The translations under genes and the position numbers were made by a program. Below, one piece after another: positions 1 to 8,334 of a stretch of DNA of 64,000 bases. Origin of the DNA: Pelodictyon luteolum DSM 273 (lineage in GTDB: Bacteria; Bacteroidota; Chlorobiia; Chlorobiales; Chlorobiaceae); NCBI RefSeq assembly GCF_000012485.1, contig NC_007512.1, positions 1,759,501-1,823,500 of the forward strand, in the 5' to 3' direction. How positions within the stretch are numbered: the stretch's first letter is position 1; the number at the start of each line of letters is the position of its first letter. The notes beneath the pieces are model-generated. The model did no database searches and was not told the origin of the DNA. It worked only from the letters and a program-made list of their open reading frames with translations.

Positions 1-16
1 CGATGCTCGTTCTTGA

Positions 17-937
17 TTATTCTTTCTCTCTGCATGGTGCGACCTCCAGTTCGCAGTTCCTCTGATGAATGGTACCCGTTCTGTCGACGGCAAAGTATGC
101 CATCCCTGACTCCTCAAGAAAAGCCAGCCCATCCTTCTCCTTCAGCATGGCGATGGTCGAGAGGCTTCCCGCAGCCGTCGCTGTCGGAGCCACAACAGAA
201 ACCGAACGCCAGTAGGTGACCGGGTACCCGGTCAGCGGACTGAGCACATGGCAGTAACGATGGCCATCAGCCTCGAAGTAACGCTCGTAATCACCGCTTG
301 TGGCAAGCGCACCTGAAAAAAGCGGCACCGATGCGATGCTCCTTTCCCGCTGCCGTGGGTCGCGGATCCCAATCGACCATGCACTCCCGTCTGGTTTCGG
401 ACCCACTACCCGGATATCACCTGCGAGGTTGACATACCCATGGCGGATGCCGTCCTGATGCAGACACGCTGCAGCACGGTCGGAAGCGTACTCCTTGCCG
501 AACCCGCCGAAGTCAATCTGCATCCCCTCGGGAAGGACGATGCTCCGCTCCTGCAGCTCGACCTTCGCCCAGCCGACCCGTCCCAGAGCAGCGGCGAGCT
601 CATCAGTCCCGGGAACCGTCCCCTTCTTGAAATCCCAGACAGTCCGAAGGATACCTGATGTTATGTCAAAGAGACCCTCACTGCTTCCATACAGGACATC
701 AGCGTAACGCAGGAGCGAGCCCGTCTCCCGATCACACGGCAGCGGGCCCTTTCCCGCCGCACCGTTGATGGCAGCAAGAACACCATCGGGCCTGTACCGG
801 GAATACCGGCACTCAATGCGGGATACCTCTTCAATGGCCCGCGCTGAAACCCGCTGTGCCTCACGCCGGCTCTCTGCAGCTATAACCATTTCCCCGTCGC
901 CCGCCATGGCAGTAAAACCGAACCTGAAAATATCCAT
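17..937 (-). CDS. apbE: ApbE-family FAD:protein FMN transferase, divergent
   Basis: This 306-residue protein belongs to the ApbE family, which moves FMN from FAD onto a Ser or Thr of a target protein. Family landmarks are F-x-A-M-A near residue 8, FDITSG at 90-95, GGFGKEYASDRA at 144-155, NLAGD at 170-174, ATSGDYERY at 212-220 and HVLSPLTGYP at 230-239. Two landmarks are altered. The usual H-x-x-D-P-x-T-G has Ser for Asp at 233, and the usual A-D-x-L-x-T metal-binding segment reads AGSLST at 256-261, so the Asp is Gly. No signal peptide is visible and an in-frame stop lies just upstream of the start, so it is probably cytoplasmic or exported by another route. It is the last gene of the tlpA-DUF4266-DUF3570-apbE run, 33 bp after DUF3570. 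Family assignment is firm; activity is uncertain. Confidence 0.87.
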   Translation of the reverse strand: MDIFRFGFTAMAGDGEMVIAAESRREAQRVSARAIEEVSRIECRYSRYRPDGVLAAINGAAGKGPLPCDRETGSLLRYADVLYGSSEGLFDITSGILRTVWDFKKGTVPGTDELAAALGRVGWAKVELQERSIVLPEGMQIDFGGFGKEYASDRAAACLHQDGIRHGYVNLAGDIRVVGPKPDGSAWSIGIRDPRQRERSIASVPLFSGALATSGDYERYFEADGHRYCHVLSPLTGYPVTYWRSVSVVAPTATAAGSLSTIAMLKEKDGLAFLEESGMAYFAVDRTGTIHQRNCELEVAPCREKE

Positions 938-2243: not shown

Positions 2244-2474
2244 TTAATTGCATCCGCATCCGCCGCCGGCTACTCCTGCGCCACCCGATGCACCTTCCTT
2301 GCTGCTGTAGATATGCTCGATATACATATTGTCTAACCGGTCACCCTCGAACGTCATTTCGGGGCGCGCCAGCGTACCCTTTTGCCAGGGCTTCACGGAA
2401 GAACAGCCCGAAAGTACCGCAATGGTCAGCAGCACTGCATACTGCATGATCTTTTTCTTGTTGATGTTCATCAT
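2244..2474 (-). CDS. Small DUF4266 lipoprotein with C-terminal CGC tail
   Basis: This 76-residue protein has a short basic N-terminus, a hydrophobic stretch and a lipobox L-S-G-C at about residues 21-24, so it should be lipidated. The mature part is only about 50 residues and ends in a Gly-rich tail, GGAGVAGGGCGCN, with a C-G-C pair that could bind metal or form a disulfide. I assign it to DUF4266, which has no known function. Its start overlaps the tlpA stop (ATGA). The GGAGG ribosome site lies in the last codons of tlpA, and a second ATG three bases on is an equally good start. The neighbouring thioredoxin could keep the tail cysteines reduced. Confidence 0.8.
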   Translation of the reverse strand: MMNINKKKIMQYAVLLTIAVLSGCSSVKPWQKGTLARPEMTFEGDRLDNMYIEHIYSSKEGASGGAGVAGGGCGCN

Positions 2475-2986
2475 TTTCCTCCCTCCAGTGCTGCCTGTAT
2501 CTGTTTTTCAAGCTGTTGGCGATCAGAAGCCTTGAAGCCTGTATGCCGTAGGACGATTTTGCCGTCCCGGCCAACAAGGAAACTGGTCGGCATCCCCTTG
2601 ACGCCATAAATATCCGGGGTTTTCCCCGTCCCATCGAATGCGACAGTGAATGCGGCAGGATGTTCAGCAAGGAATTTCCAGGCGTCTGCACGGCGCGCAT
2701 CAAGGTTGATTGCGATGACCCGGAGTCCTTTTGAACGGTATTTCTGCTGCATGCTGTTCATCCAGGAGAAGGACTCCCGGCATGGACCGCACCACGAAGC
2801 CCAGAAATCGACATATACAACCGAACCCGCTCTATCAGCAAGGCTGACCGGGCCTTGTGTCCCGGGAAGGGAAAAATCGACAGCCCGCTGCCCAGCATCA
2901 AGTGCAAGGGCATTGCCAGTAAAACTCATTGTCATTAGTGCGGCAAAAGCAAATCGCCGCAGGCGTTTACATTGACGGTTCATCAT
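2471..2986 (-). CDS. TlpA/ResA-like exported thioredoxin
   Basis: This is a periplasmic thiol-disulfide oxidoreductase of the TlpA/ResA type, 171 residues from the chosen start. Residues 1-28 form a signal peptide (basic MMNRQCKRLRR, hydrophobic core, cleavage after ALA). The redox motif WCGPC is at about 65-69 after the YVDFWAS strand, and a cis-Pro region G-M-P-T-S-F-L lies further on. An upstream in-frame start at 3055 would put 23 residues before the signal peptide, so I prefer 2986, though no clear ribosome site marks it. It heads the DUF4266-DUF3570-apbE run and diverges from resB-ccsA, so a role in cytochrome c thiol reduction is an alternative to a role inside the cluster. Confidence 0.86.
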   Translation of the reverse strand: MMNRQCKRLRRFAFAALMTMSFTGNALALDAGQRAVDFSLPGTQGPVSLADRAGSVVYVDFWASWCGPCRESFSWMNSMQQKYRSKGLRVIAINLDARRADAWKFLAEHPAAFTVAFDGTGKTPDIYGVKGMPTSFLVGRDGKIVLRHTGFKASDRQQLEKQIQAALEGGK

Positions 2987-3072
2987 CGGAATGCAGTTTT
3001 TTTTTTGGAAAACAGCGTACAGGTACGCCTCCAGTAATTTCTCCATGTGTCTCATCTGAACCCGTAATAATA

Positions 3073-3088
3073 ATTAACAATTGTTAAT
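3073..3088. promoter_or_regulatory. Perfect 16-bp palindrome, operator candidate 1
   Basis: ATTAACAATTGTTAAT is a perfect 16-bp palindrome about 90 bp upstream of the tlpA start. A near copy lies 159 bp away at 3232-3247. Size and symmetry suit a dimeric repressor or activator. I cannot name the regulator. Confidence 0.45.
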
Positions 3089-3231: not shown

Positions 3232-3247
3232 GTTAACAATTATTAAT
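3232..3247. promoter_or_regulatory. Imperfect copy of the 16-bp palindrome, operator candidate 2
   Basis: GTTAACAATTATTAAT differs from the copy at 3073-3088 at two positions. It lies about 135 bp upstream of resB. Two matching palindromes in one divergent region suggest one regulator acting on one or both operons. Confidence 0.4.
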
Positions 3248-3382
3248 ACGAATGTTTGGACATCGAGACCCGGGAACATAAATTAACCCTTCACCGACCA
3301 AAGCACGGCCCCGTCAGTCCCTTATAATCAGTGATAGACAAGTTGTGCATCATCAGCATGGGGCTCTTTTCTGACTTAAAAA

Positions 3383-4639
3383 ATGACACTGCTTCATACT
3401 ATGGCCCCTCACCCGCGAAAATGGTTTCATGCCCCCTGGGAATTCAGGGAGGCGGCACTTGCAGCGACACTGACCCTAGCGCTCGGATTCGCCGTTCAGT
3501 ATAGCCTCGGAGGGGCGGGCATAACCATGCCGGCCTGGCCACTCAACGGCATCATTCTCGCCCTCATTGCGCTTGCCACCCTCACACTCGGCCTATCGTT
3601 CCGGAACCACCCCATGGTGCAGTGGCTCGGCGGCATCCCCCTCGGGCTCTCCCTCATTTTATCCCTCGCCATCCTCTCATTCATCGGCGGCATGGTACCG
3701 CAAGGTGCGGCGGGCAATCCGGCAGCGATGCAGCTCGGCCTTTACAGCATATTTTCAAGCTGGCCCTTTGCCCTGACCGTAGCCATTTTCTTCGTGAACC
3801 TCGGCCTCTCGCTCGTATGGAAAACCATTCCATTCAGCCCCAAAAACCTGCAGTTCATTTTGTTCCATGCAGGCTTCTGGATTGCACTCGCATGCGGTAT
3901 TTTCGGCAGTTCGGATCTCCAGCGGCTGGTCGTTCCAGTCTATGAAGGCCGGAGCACCAGCCGGGGCCTGGTGTCGGGTGAAGGAAGAGATGTTGTCGAG
4001 CTACCGTTCTCGATCAAGCTCCATGACTTCTCGATAGAGGAATACCCGCCCCAGCTCATGTTCTATGATCCGGAGTCGGACCGCTTCATCATGGCCGGTT
4101 CCCAGGCGGTCACCGAGGTCCATAAAGGCACCAGAGTCTCATGGAAAGGCACCGACGTGGAGGTAACGGAGTTCATGACTTCTGCCATGCCGGGCCCTAG
4201 CGGCAATCCCGTTGCAGCACCTCCATCAGCAGGCATCCCATACGCGAAAGTCCGCATCACCGGCAGCGGAGCGCAGCCCGACACCTGGCTCAGCACCGGA
4301 GGGCCCGGCATGAGGCCCTATGTCGCGGGTATCGACTCCCAGATTCTCATCATGGTTCCGGGATCACCGAAGTCATACCGCTCGGCGGTCACCTTACAGG
4401 CCGAAGGGGGCCGAAGCCTCGAAGCAGAGCTAGAGGTGAACAAGCCGGTGAACTTCGAAGGCTGGAAAATCTACCAGATGGGGTACGACGAAGAATCAGG
4501 ACGATTCTCGACGCTCAGCCTTCTTGAAGCAATACGCGATCCATGGCTCCCGGGGGTCTATCTCGGGTTTTTCATGATACTCGGAGGCAATGCGCTCTTT
4601 TTCTGGAACGGCATCAAACGATCGGGGGTTCAGGCATGA
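3383..4639 (+). CDS. resB: ResB-like cytochrome c biogenesis protein
   Basis: This 418-residue membrane protein belongs to the ResB/Ccs1 group of system II cytochrome c maturation, which with CcsA carries haem across the membrane for attachment to apocytochromes. Several hydrophobic helices fill residues 25-190. A large extracytoplasmic segment (about 200-385) follows, with the typical end N-F-E-G-W-K-I-Y-Q-M-G-Y-D, and a last helix lies near 392-412. The stop overlaps the ccsA start (ATGA at 4636-4639), so the two are translationally coupled. No strong ribosome site precedes the ATG, and Met7 is an alternative start. The gene diverges from the TlpA-like thioredoxin. Confidence 0.88.
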   Translation: MTLLHTMAPHPRKWFHAPWEFREAALAATLTLALGFAVQYSLGGAGITMPAWPLNGIILALIALATLTLGLSFRNHPMVQWLGGIPLGLSLILSLAILSFIGGMVPQGAAGNPAAMQLGLYSIFSSWPFALTVAIFFVNLGLSLVWKTIPFSPKNLQFILFHAGFWIALACGIFGSSDLQRLVVPVYEGRSTSRGLVSGEGRDVVELPFSIKLHDFSIEEYPPQLMFYDPESDRFIMAGSQAVTEVHKGTRVSWKGTDVEVTEFMTSAMPGPSGNPVAAPPSAGIPYAKVRITGSGAQPDTWLSTGGPGMRPYVAGIDSQILIMVPGSPKSYRSAVTLQAEGGRSLEAELEVNKPVNFEGWKIYQMGYDEESGRFSTLSLLEAIRDPWLPGVYLGFFMILGGNALFFWNGIKRSGVQA

Positions 4640-5433
4640 TCATTGATTTCACAGCTGCGGCATACCTTTCAATCGCCTTCTGGGCATCCGGCAGCCTGTT
4701 AGGGCTTGCCGCAAGGGGCAGCGCCGTCATGAAAAGAGCGGCAACAGGGCTCAACCTCGGCGGCTCGCTCGTCATGATCGCCTTCATCGCCATGTACTGG
4801 TCGGCGCTCGAACGCCCACCCCTCCGTACCCTCGGTGAAACCCGCCTCTGGTATGCGGCGCTTATTCCGCTGGTTGGGCTCCTTGTCGAGCAGCGCTGGA
4901 ACATCTCCTGGCTGAAATACTACTGTATGGCGCTCGCGGCATTCTTCCTCTCCATCAACCTCATGCACCCGGAGGTCTTCGACAAGGCCCTGATGCCTGC
5001 TCTGCAGAGCCCGTGGTTCATCCCTCACGTCGTCGTCTACCTGGTCGGCTATGTGCTGCTTGCAGCATCATCGGTGGCGGGATGGCACAACATCTTTCTC
5101 ACCTGGAGAAAAAAGAACACCCTGCAGAATGACGCGATCGGCCACTATCTGGCACTGCTCGGGTTCGTCTTCCTTACCTTCGGGCTGGTGTTCGGTGCAC
5201 TCTGGGCCAAAGACGCCTGGGGAAACTACTGGTCATGGGATCCGAAGGAGACCTGGGCATTCATCGCCTGGCTGATCTACCTCGGCTACCTGCATGCCTC
5301 AAGCTGGAAAGTCAGGCGACTGAACCTCCAGTGGTACCTGGCGCTGGCCTTTCTGGTGCTGCTTGTCAGCTGGTTCGGCGTCAACTACCTGCCGACGGCG
5401 GCCAACAGCGTACACACATACCAGCAGAGCTAG
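4636..5433 (+). CDS. ccsA: CcsA-type cytochrome c assembly protein
   Basis: This 265-residue polytopic protein has the haem-handling signature WGNYWSWDPKETW (the WWD motif) near residues 194-206, plus about eight hydrophobic helices. Both are diagnostic of CcsA/CcmF-type haem lyases. With ResB it forms the system II haem export and ligation complex that supplies c-type cytochromes such as PscC. An upstream in-frame start lies inside resB; the start at 4636, overlapping the resB stop, removes a non-family extension of 31 residues. The gene ends 15 bp from the convergent ablB, with no obvious terminator between. Confidence 0.92.
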   Translation: MIIDFTAAAYLSIAFWASGSLLGLAARGSAVMKRAATGLNLGGSLVMIAFIAMYWSALERPPLRTLGETRLWYAALIPLVGLLVEQRWNISWLKYYCMALAAFFLSINLMHPEVFDKALMPALQSPWFIPHVVVYLVGYVLLAASSVAGWHNIFLTWRKKNTLQNDAIGHYLALLGFVFLTFGLVFGALWAKDAWGNYWSWDPKETWAFIAWLIYLGYLHASSWKVRRLNLQWYLALAFLVLLVSWFGVNYLPTAANSVHTYQQS

Positions 5434-5448: not shown

Positions 5449-6282
5449 TCAGTGAAGGCTTTTGTGCCACACATTCATGCTCTCGATTCCTCCGGAGATA
5501 TTGGTGTTGTTGACCAGAGTGCCGCCGAACCGGTAGCCGGCACGGGCAAAGGTGATATTCATCCCAACCGATGCCGCACGGGCGATGGTAAAGGCCGTGA
5601 GCATCCCCTTCTTCCGCATCCCGTCCTCCATCGTCCGCAGCAGATGCAGTGCCAGACCGCGACCACGCCAGTCCGGAAGGGTCGCGAAGTCGGTCATCTC
5701 CACACTCTTTCCAACAAGATCCATTTCAGATGAAGCAAGCGCCACAAGGCGCCCTCCACGCTCTACCCCATAGTAGTCTACATGGGTGTTCATGGTCTCC
5801 AGCAACCACTTAGGATCATCGATCGGAAACGGATAGGAGGGGAAAACCTCCCGGTAAATGGCGCTCATGGCGGAAATGTCGTCGGGTGTGCATTGCCGGA
5901 TCTGAAATTCTTCAGCAACAGCATCCACCGGCGAGTGAGGAAGCGCGTGGGCCATGACTGCGATCTTCCCGATGTCGTCTCCATCCTTTGCGACAGCCCG
6001 GTTTGAATCAAGAAACAGCGCAAGAAACAGCATCATGTCCCTGCCTCCATAAAAACCCGGAATTCGAGCCTCCTCCCGGTAACCACACTCCAGAAACGGA
6101 TCGGAGAAGCCGATCGGCACTTTCGCAATAATCTTGCTGTACCCGTTCCGGCAGGCAAGCCCGACGAGTTCATCAGGTAACGTGAAAGGATCTGCATCAG
6201 CCAGGTCCATCAGATAGATCCGCCGGCTTAAGGAACCGTGGTGGATGAGTGCGCCCTTATATTGTTCAATGGTATCTGTCAT
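5449..6282 (-). CDS. ablB: beta-lysine N6-acetyltransferase
   Basis: AblB acetylates beta-lysine to N-epsilon-acetyl-beta-lysine, a compatible solute. The 277-residue protein has an N-terminal segment typical of AblB (YSKIIAKVPIGFSDPFLECGY, roughly residues 38-58). A C-terminal GNAT acetyltransferase domain follows, with the acetyl-CoA loop D-W-R-G-R-G-L-A-L-H-L and the helix N-I-T-F-A-R-A-G-Y. I start at MTDTIEQ because the preceding 41 open codons do not resemble the family. It follows ablA on the same strand after a 236-bp gap in which I see no gene. Acetyl-beta-lysine has been reported as an osmolyte in green sulfur bacteria, which fits a salt-tolerant member. Confidence 0.88.
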   Translation of the reverse strand: MTDTIEQYKGALIHHGSLSRRIYLMDLADADPFTLPDELVGLACRNGYSKIIAKVPIGFSDPFLECGYREEARIPGFYGGRDMMLFLALFLDSNRAVAKDGDDIGKIAVMAHALPHSPVDAVAEEFQIRQCTPDDISAMSAIYREVFPSYPFPIDDPKWLLETMNTHVDYYGVERGGRLVALASSEMDLVGKSVEMTDFATLPDWRGRGLALHLLRTMEDGMRKKGMLTAFTIARAASVGMNITFARAGYRFGGTLVNNTNISGGIESMNVWHKSLH

Positions 6283-6518
6283 GAAGCCTTTTCGGTATCG
6301 GGAACAATGAATGAAAACGGGAGTAACGAGCCTTGCGGGGAGGAACGCCAGAGGCCGGCAAAACCGGTTAAGATCCACCGGCATACTGATGGCTCCATCA
6401 TGCATCCCCTTCAGTACATGCTGCGCTTCCCGTTACAGAAATCCTCAGCATCGCCGTTCCGCCAGAAATGGTGTCAACCGACACCAAGCGCCAGATCCTC
6501 GAACCAGCCCATCAGCCA

Positions 6519-7835
6519 TTACTCCTCTTCTCCCCTTCGTCGTGAAAGGCGCTCGTTCGAGGACGGGATGAGCGAAATGGTGGCATCATGGTCCGAGAGC
6601 AGCTGCTGGATGCCGATGGCCTCCATGGCGTCGGCATCATCAAGATTGAGCTGCAGGTCGCAGCGATCGCAATTTCGGTCGCAGAAGGTAGGCAGATAGG
6701 AATCCGGCTCTTTATACGTGGTGATCACTCCTTCGTAGTTGCGCAGCACAACCTTGTTCGTCGACCATGAAATCAGGTAGTTCGGCATGACAGGGATCTT
6801 TCCTCCGCCGCCCGGCGCATCGATCACATAGGTCGGAACGGAAAAGCCGCTCGTATGGCCGATCAGGCTCTCAAGAATCTCGATCCCCTTGCCAACCGGT
6901 GTGCGGAAATGCGAAAGCCCTTCGGACAGGTCGCACTGGTAGAGGTAGTAGGGGCGTACGCGGTTGCGCACGAGTTTGTGTACGAGCGCTTTCATGATGC
7001 GCGGGCAATCGTTGATGCCGGAGAGCAGCACGGTCTGATTGCCGAGCGGCAGTCCGCCATCGGCAAGGAGAGCCAGAGCGTTTCTGGACGACTGGGTGAT
7101 CTCGCGCGGGTGGTTGAAATGCGTGTTCACCCACACCGGCTGGTGCTTTTTCAGAACGGCAACCAGCGCCGGCGTGATGCGCTGCGGCAGCACCACGGGA
7201 GTCCGGGTGCCGATACGGATGACCTCGACGTGCTCTATGGCCTGAAGCTCCCCGAGTATCCAGTCGAGATAGTCGTCTGAGAGCAGGAACGGGTCGCCGC
7301 CGCTCAGCAGCACATCTCGAACCTGCGGAGTCCGGCGGATGTAGTCGATGCCCTCACTGATTGCCGAACGGCCGGGAATGGTATCCCGGTCACCCACCTT
7401 CCTCTTGCGGGTGCAGTGACGGCAGTACATCGGACAGGTGTTGCTCACCAGAAGCAAAACCCTGTCGGGGTAACGGTGGGTCACACAGGGAGCCGGGCTG
7501 TCTGCATCCTCGTGCAACGGATCAGCCATGTCGCCCGTCATGATCTCGAGTTCACGCGGGGAGGGCACGCTCTGCAGGAAAACAGGATCGTTCGCCATGT
7601 CCCGGGTGTTGATGAGCGAGAGGTAGTAGGGGGTGATGGACATCGGGAACTTCGCGACCGTCTGGCCGAAGGCCTTGCGCTGTTCATCCGAAAGGGTGAT
7701 GCCGAGAAGGGATTCAAAAGCTGAAAGGGTGCGGACGCTGTGGCGCATCTGCCATTTCCAGTCTTGCCAGTCCGAAAGAGTGGCGTTATGGTCGATCCTC
7801 TGGATAATCTGTTGCTGGGCCAGTGATAAGGTCAT
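6519..7835 (-). CDS. ablA: Lysine 2,3-aminomutase
   Basis: This radical-SAM enzyme converts L-lysine to L-beta-lysine using PLP and a 4Fe-4S cluster. The cluster motif [11 protein letters not shown] is in the first half. Downstream are the typical [25 protein letters not shown] and the C-terminal cysteine pair [11 protein letters not shown] that can bind zinc. Length from the chosen ATG is 438 residues, usual for the family. An upstream TTG would add 13 residues of no family character. The start lies inside the end of the MarR gene (50-bp overlap), tying it to that regulator, and ablB follows. Confidence 0.93.
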
Positions 7836-8334
7836 GGTATGCAGGTGTGATTTCCGGGTCAAAATGCCTGGCAAGCTTTACAAGCAGCTCCGAAAGGAGC
7901 ATCTGCTCATCTGCAGGCATTCGACCAAACGCACGCAGATAGGAATCGCGCATCAGTTCGGGCACCGAGTCGATAAGAGCCTGCCCGGCAGGAGTGATGC
8001 CGAGCAATACCTTCCGCTGATCCTCCAGCGAGCGTGAACGCGACACAAGCCCGCGAGCCTCAAGACGATCAAGAATGCCGTTCACCGTGCTGAGGCTGAG
8101 TTGCAGTTCGGCGGCAAGCAGCGAAAGGGTGTGCACACTCTCCTTTTGCAGGGTATGCAGGCAGAGCAGCTGTGGAGAGGTGATCTTCCACTCCCGGTGA
8201 AGCTTTCTGGAATGCACATCAAGAGCCCGTGTAATACGGCGCAGGGCATGGTACCCCCTTCCGTCGGACCCTTCCTCCGGCAACACGGCATGCTGCATCG
8301 TTCGGGGAAATCTGGTTATAAAAAACTTTCGCAT
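7786..8334 (-). CDS. MarR-family regulator, likely controls ablAB
   Basis: This 182-residue protein carries a MarR winged helix: a first helix around [18 protein letters not shown], the recognition region [24 protein letters not shown], and the wing [16 protein letters not shown]. The open frame extends to a TTG at 8358, but that codon lies just upstream of an inverted repeat that could be this protein's own operator, so I prefer the ATG at 8334. The gene overlaps the ablA start, suggesting one transcript and control of osmolyte synthesis. The ligand or signal is unknown; MarR proteins usually sense small molecules or oxidation, and a link to salt stress is inference from position. Confidence 0.85.

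Follow-up and report, generated by a model that had tools for sequence, protein, structure and literature searches.

The DUF4266 protein encoded at 2244–2474 on the minus strand of the window (the whole 64,000-nucleotide stretch of the Pelodictyon luteolum DSM 273 genome that was analysed) would probably, at a rough probability of 0.6, act as a lipid-anchored thiol/disulfide shuttle between a thioredoxin and a barrel-bound flavin. Since the gene cluster with its CXC and the flavinylated DUF3570 have already been published, the observation in its original wording brings nothing new. This analysis adds the constant pairing with DUF3570, the use of two thioredoxin types, the near-fixed length of the lipoprotein arm, a model of the barrel free of Cys and the side on which its flavins are predicted to lie.

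Meheust et al (2021; PMC8238504) described DsbD-type flavinylation clusters of ApbE, DUF3570, a thioredoxin-like protein and DUF4266, the same gene set as in the window, and the accessible part of that paper states that the conserved CXC of DUF4266 “may undergo redox cycling.” In the same part, the DUF3570 of C. luteolum DSM 273 was flavinylated at two sites and lost its flavinylation only when both motifs were changed; this DUF3570 and its ApbE are probably the genes of the window. The sequence-only reading, which knew of no function for DUF4266, was right that none has been assigned, whereas the cluster and its conserved CXC had been reported. The main text of the paper contains neither “barrel” nor “porin” and a single unrelated “outer membrane,” and its accessible part holds nothing on a lipid anchor or a fixed length for DUF4266 and nothing on which side the flavins face. 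The word “DUF3570” did not occur in the accessible parts of a 2024 AlphaFold survey (PMC11334425) and a 2025 ApbE review (PMC12052999), and the literature on ApbE and the C. tepidum locus tags gave nothing more on the DUF4266-DUF3570 system.

A mini-lipoprotein with a Cys-Gly-Cys tail

The 76-aa product of 2244–2474 matched the Pfam model of DUF4266 (PF14086) over its entire length (positions 1–50 of 50; 80.8 bits, 1.4e-22, with the Pfam cut-off at 27 bits). The plus-strand reading of the same interval was rejected, the DUF4266 ORF being on the minus strand. The signal peptide ends with the lipobox LSGC, which predicts Cys24 as the lipid-bearing residue and leaves a mature protein of 53 residues with the C-terminal sequence GGAGVAGGGCGCN (its end also written as ...KEGASGGAGVAGGGCGCN), where CGC occupies residues 73–75. 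The mini-lipoprotein of about 50 mature residues with a Gly-rich CGC end, as originally described from the letters, was thus found as proposed. When the protein was modelled with AF2, no fold was obtained beyond the signal helix (pTM 0.29, mean pLDDT 61), and the pLDDT of the mature blocks was mostly about 50. The EGAS of DUF4266 resembles a flavinylation motif; the protein was ruled out as an ApbE substrate because the Ser is replaced with Ala in several members.

The tail was then compared across 62 distinct DUF4266 members that had been found by HMM, the tail pattern not being used for finding them. All 62 end in CGC followed by one or two residues, as CGCN in 58, CGCG in 3 and CGCAK in 1. 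The sequence-only reading had proposed to follow the conservation of the last two Cys and had named their loss in most family members as the outcome that would speak against it; the Cys pair is kept in every one of the 62. The lipobox was present in 61/62, the remaining member being truncated at the end of its contig, and no further Cys was found between the lipid Cys and the tail in 61/62. Another 77 members were found by patterns that include the tail, and this set, which is biased by construction, was counted apart; all 77 end in CGCN and 76 of them carry the lipobox pattern. In an alignment of 28 sequences with a mean column identity of 40%, the invariant residues were the lipid Cys, one Met, one Glu and the GGCGC.

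The mature length was also found to be nearly fixed, at 53 residues in 37, 56 in 23 and 54 in one of the HMM-found members (n = 61), and at 53 in 72/76 of those found by patterns. All counts of DUF4266 and DUF3570 cover one phylum (Chlorobi and Bacteroidota), and no match to DUF4266 was found in plasmids. A chain that is modelled with no fold, keeps its length, is anchored at one end and carries a Cys pair at the other looks like a tether, and the kept length may also reflect relatedness alone.

The operon and the predicted DUF3570 barrel

The gene order on the minus strand is thioredoxin, DUF4266, DUF3570, ApbE and then dsbD, which runs past the window edge, and judged from the arrangement these genes likely form one operon. 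The thioredoxin (2471–3055, minus; Pfam Redoxin/AhpC-TSA) is TlpA/ResA-like with a WCGPC site, and its translation probably begins at an internal Met near 2987, from which a signal peptide would run. It scored 97.1 bits against the NCBIfam model of ResA and 63.5 bits against that of TlpA, below the curated scores of 170 and 230, respectively. Its stop and the DUF4266 start share four bases (2471–2474), and this overlap supports a single operon, in line with the earlier suggestion that the lipoprotein and the thioredoxin come from the same transcript. DUF3570 (971–2224, minus; 417 aa, Pfam PF12094) begins 19 bases past the DUF4266 stop and is followed by ApbE, an FAD:protein FMN transferase (17–937, minus; Pfam PF02424, 241 bits). 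The first 35 bases of dsbD lie in the window (1–35, minus), with the start codon at base 35; the full-length gene (G000:C1:1757667–1759535) overlaps the ApbE end and encodes a DsbD of 622 aa with DsbD_N (97 bits), DsbD_TM (306 bits) and a C-terminal thioredoxin domain. The cluster thus contains both a DsbD and a DUF3570 with two flavinylation motifs, both features of a DsbD-type flavinylation system. The redox relay named in the sequence-only reading draws good support from this context of an invariant CGC, an adjacent redox-active thioredoxin, a DsbD in the operon and a flavinylated DUF3570 directly downstream.

The DUF3570 of the window has no Cys, and its flavinylation motifs are SGAS 75–78 and SGAS 119–122. 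AF2, supplied with 67 homologues, modelled it as a 16-stranded barrel (mean pLDDT 73, pTM 0.71), with residues 1–85 at a pLDDT below 50. A Foldseek search with this model returned 451 PDB chains at E ≤ 0.001, and the matches listed were outer-membrane barrels. The best match in VIA-align was the PelB barrel (9h80_M; Z 21.4, rmsd 3.8, 261 residues), and many other barrels were aligned at a Z of approximately 17–21 with their C-termini matched. DUF3570 is accordingly predicted from the model to be an outer-membrane beta-barrel; no flavoprotein barrel was among the Foldseek and VIA matches listed, which says nothing on the absence of such barrels.

The sidedness of the model was read by the rule that the C-terminus and the short turns lie on the periplasmic side. 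Short turns were seen at 104–106, 149–150, 178–182, 221–224, 267–272, 302–303 and 372–375, and the connections on the opposite side were mostly longer. By this rule, SGAS 119–122 is predicted at the start of an outer-side loop, and SGAS 75–78, which falls in the poorly modelled part ahead of the next strand, would sit in the preceding outer-side loop. The DUF3570 proteins of Bacteroidota carry two [ST][GS]AS motifs near each other in the same loop region. If the flavin sites are on the outer side, ApbE would have to act before the barrel is inserted, and the flavin carried by the pelleted, denatured DUF3570 in the accessible part of PMC8238504 fits such an order but is no proof of it. Fifteen invariant positions of DUF3570 were also considered as a docking site for DUF4266. 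This idea was not supported, as all 15 are identical in each of the 10 compared copies that have no adjacent DUF4266, and these residues would rather serve the flavin or the barrel than a DUF4266-specific site.

Divergent genes for ResB-like and cytochrome c assembly proteins (ResB/CcsA-type) lie at 3383–5433, and between these and the operon a perfect palindrome TTAACAATTGTTAA was found upstream of the latter, at 3074–3087. It stands about 90 bases ahead of the point where the thioredoxin likely starts, and a second copy, TTAACAATTATTAA, with one mismatch, is at 3233–3246. The genome contains three exact copies and nine places with at most one mismatch, as against none for the reversed control, and the palindrome is likely an operator on these grounds. 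Other sites are at G000:C1:1737383, 1739836, 1739959 and 1753468 and, in relatives, at L053 4259 and 17006, L054 5842, L062 6902 and L070 1669. Ten flanking genes were scanned around nine further palindrome regions. Copies adjoin PLP genes of Cys/Met metabolism that have a PALP (cysK-like) gene and a gene for a solute-binding protein beside them, exact copies lie near Cys/Met PLP genes in G025, G011 and G008, and the palindrome is also found near DUF4395 and, at two mismatches, near a sulfite reductase; further places, near FadL-like and unknown genes, have no sulfur link. The palindrome looks like the mark of a Chlorobium sulfur/cysteine regulon to which the DUF4266 operon, or the divergent ResB gene next to it, would belong. 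The site precedes thioredoxin-DUF4266 in G030 and G008, where no ResB was found in the locus by motif search. A sulfur regulon was rejected as the whole explanation because the site is absent in most Chlorobi loci: with the window's own gene excluded, it was found (≤3 mismatches) within approximately 900 bases upstream of 3/20 Chlorobi thioredoxin genes, one of these sites having three mismatches and one having two. A whole-locus scan added two more sites in L053 and several ahead of ResB. Farther along the window, a lysine-2,3-aminomutase-like radical SAM gene (6519–7874, minus) is followed by a GNAT acetyltransferase gene (5449–6405, minus), a pair that presumably makes N-acetyl-beta-lysine, an osmolyte.

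Partners of DUF4266 across genomes

The surroundings of DUF4266 were compared in 120 loci, 40 of them from HMM hits and 80 from the tail-biased pattern scan. The next gene of a scanned family on the same strand was DUF3570 in all 122 cases in these loci. A single draw of 296 genomes from the phylum gave 83 with DUF4266 and 86 with DUF3570, and every genome listed for DUF4266 was also on the DUF3570 list. The three genomes with DUF3570 alone were G007, G285 and, with a weak match, G018; in G007 and G285, DUF4266 was not detected anywhere in the genome, and the barrel can therefore be kept without it. No DUF4266-DUF3570 fusion was present among the frames with two labels in the 120 loci.

A thioredoxin-family match was found in 112/120 loci, and of the eight loci without one, at least two are short contigs. 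The aromatic-CxxC site was kept in 113/116 separate thioredoxin-family proteins, the three exceptions being two fragments and one peroxiredoxin-like protein. Scans of the window thioredoxin and three other partner proteins assigned the partner to the TlpA/redoxin type in Chlorobi and to the Thioredoxin_7/Thioredoxin_2 type in Bacteroidota, which indicates that unlike thioredoxins serve the same tail. In L085, a thioredoxin-ApbE fusion is encoded in one frame of 521 residues (3371–4933) directly upstream of DUF4266. DUF3570 without an adjacent DUF4266 was seen in 11 loci (L091–L100 and L102), where it was in some cases followed by ApbE and DsbD. A DsbD-sized neighbour was present in four of these 11, and the one scanned was a DsbD; a small thioredoxin neighbour was present in one, L102, which is a case contrary to the proposed shuttle as its thioredoxin adjoins DUF3570 with no DUF4266 present. 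Judged from these gene neighbourhoods, DUF4266 and a dedicated thioredoxin tend to co-occur. DsbD was also found in the DUF4266 operons of L053, L054 and L072.

The recurrent neighbours in Bacteroidota, named from a scan of one member of each family, included a histidine kinase (35 of the 120 loci), a response regulator (34), VIT1 (28), cytochrome b561 (24) and a Rieske protein (18). These neighbours speak for electron transfer in the envelope, and VIT1, which is linked to iron in the accessible part of PMC8238504, points to iron. In several Chlorobi, the window genome not among them, the operon adjoins c-type cytochromes and porin-sized proteins with one haem, which likewise speak for envelope electron transfer. 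These lie directly upstream of thioredoxin-DUF4266, with the porin-sized proteins at L061 6249–7652, L062 4764–6161, L070 2643–3947 and L052 2485–3816; they gave no Pfam match where scanned, and we take them to resemble porin-cytochrome fusions. Between DUF3570 and ApbE, some Chlorobi encode an Ig-like repeat protein (Big_5/SWM; L051 6541–7677, L052 6721–8451, L061 2674–3873 and L057 724–3342) that has an [ST]GAS motif at around residue 75–90 and a hydrophobic C-terminal end, which makes it a candidate for a further ApbE substrate at the cell surface. The same position is occupied by a secreted NusG domain II protein (PF07009) at L063 3056–3787, L064 6424–7080 and L090 3213–3902.

A proposed thiol-flavin relay and its alternatives

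In the proposed relay, DsbD would carry cytosolic electrons into the periplasm, where the thioredoxin would accept them through its WCGPC site. The lipidated Cys24 would anchor DUF4266 in a membrane, most likely in the inner leaflet of the outer membrane, and the remainder of the protein would form an unfolded arm of near-fixed length, the tip of which, Cys73-Gly-Cys75, cycles between dithiol and disulfide. The thioredoxin would reduce the CGC disulfide by exchange with this tip, and the dithiol arm would reduce, or in reverse be oxidised by, the FMN groups placed on the DUF3570 barrel by ApbE, from where electrons may flow outward to a cell-surface acceptor, with iron as a candidate. Because the window DUF3570 has no Cys, CGC must act on the flavin or on the thioredoxin and not on a disulfide of the barrel. 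The reported potentials, as given in the accessible parts of the sources, are −167 mV for the tripeptide CGC, −200 mV for a CGC mutant of thioredoxin and −229 mV for nDsbD (PMC3173608), and −184 mV for phosphoester-linked FMN and −207 mV for free FMN (PMC10339131). These values are compatible with the relay and permit either direction of flow.

The nearest mechanistic precedent is the shuttle of the Erv1/Erv2 oxidases, that of Erv2 being a Cys-Gly-Cys disulfide. In the accessible part of PMC3509050, a Cys pair carried by a flexible loop or tail, Cys-X-Cys in some Erv enzymes, exchanges with thiol partners and feeds the flavin. In these enzymes, however, the tail is part of the same protein as the flavin domain, and the Erv fold holds an FAD with a second Cys pair next to it, whereas the tail of DUF4266 is on a separate lipoprotein and the flavin of DUF3570 is a covalent FMN on a modelled barrel without Cys. 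The DUF4266 system would work like the Erv shuttle and is not a member of that family, and the missing second disulfide means that a direct step from dithiol to flavin is needed. CsgC of the curli system is similar in having a redox-active CXC in the Gram-negative envelope and a proposed outer-membrane partner but, in the accessible part of PMC3173608, is a folded Ig-like domain, whereas no fold is predicted for DUF4266.

The same tail could be read as a metal ligand, in that, at the outer membrane, CGC and the terminal Asn carboxylate would bind Cu(I), Fe(II) or Zn while the thioredoxin and DsbD keep the thiols reduced. CXC is a soft-metal ligand pair, and the VIT1-family genes near DUF4266 are all on the same strand (28/120 loci). 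Clusters with VIT1 numbered 25 in the accessible part of PMC8238504. We nevertheless regard metal handling as rather improbable, since the tail offers just two thiols, no copper gene is prominent among the recurrent neighbours listed and metal binding would not explain why DUF4266 is always paired with a flavinylated barrel that lacks Cys; nothing specific spoke for the metal site that the sequence-only reading had listed. Its suggestion of a thioether-like modification fared worse: a short invariant C-terminal motif rich in Gly and Cys would suit a peptide tail processed by a maturase, and no maturase was found in the operon or among the recurrent neighbour families listed for the 120 loci, which makes such a tail very improbable.

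The partnership with the barrel could instead be structural. As a docking or plug subunit of DUF3570, the lipoprotein would use CGC as a structural or regulatory disulfide and not as an electron carrier, an arrangement that agrees with the constant DUF4266-DUF3570 pairing and gene order, with the near-fixed mature length and with the PelB barrel of PelBC as best VIA match, PelC, the partner of PelB, being a lipoprotein. Such an assembly role would not explain why DUF4266 is linked time and again to two types of thioredoxin and to DsbD, and structural disulfides are rare in unfolded, Gly-rich C-termini like that of DUF4266, making this role doubtful. Finally, the relay might run backwards as an outer-membrane thiol oxidase, in which the barrel flavins take electrons from periplasmic thiols and CGC draws them from thioredoxin-type substrates and not from DsbD. 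The near-equal potentials in those sources leave the direction unfixed by thermodynamics, and the Erv enzymes, as described in the part of PMC3509050 at hand, run in this direction; with the reductant importer DsbD encoded in the operon here and in three others, and with many hosts being anaerobic Chlorobi, reverse flow seems unlikely.

A difficulty for the shuttle reading is that flavins facing outward would require the periplasmic arm to reach through or past the barrel. A tentative extension, which we hold as possible and well short of probable, is a haem-free outer-membrane conduit: the unfolded arm of fixed length would enter the barrel from the periplasm, and its CGC tip would swing to the two covalent FMNs modelled on the side of the long outer loops, passing the reducing power of thioredoxin to extracellular acceptors such as iron, with sulfur outside the cell as a further possibility in green sulfur bacteria. 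Electrons are moved over the outer membrane by a cofactor-bearing barrel in porin-cytochrome conduits (MtrCAB type; Cyc2). These conduits use haem, whereas DUF4266-DUF3570 would use flavin and thiols, with conduction as a proposal; the one-haem porin-sized proteins beside some Chlorobi DUF4266 operons add to the likeness. The analysis thus yields a concrete model in which a lipid-anchored dithiol arm feeds a barrel whose flavins are predicted to lie on the surface side. Should this model hold, green sulfur bacteria and common Bacteroidota would have a means of moving electrons across the outer membrane that uses thiols and flavin instead of multihaem cytochromes.
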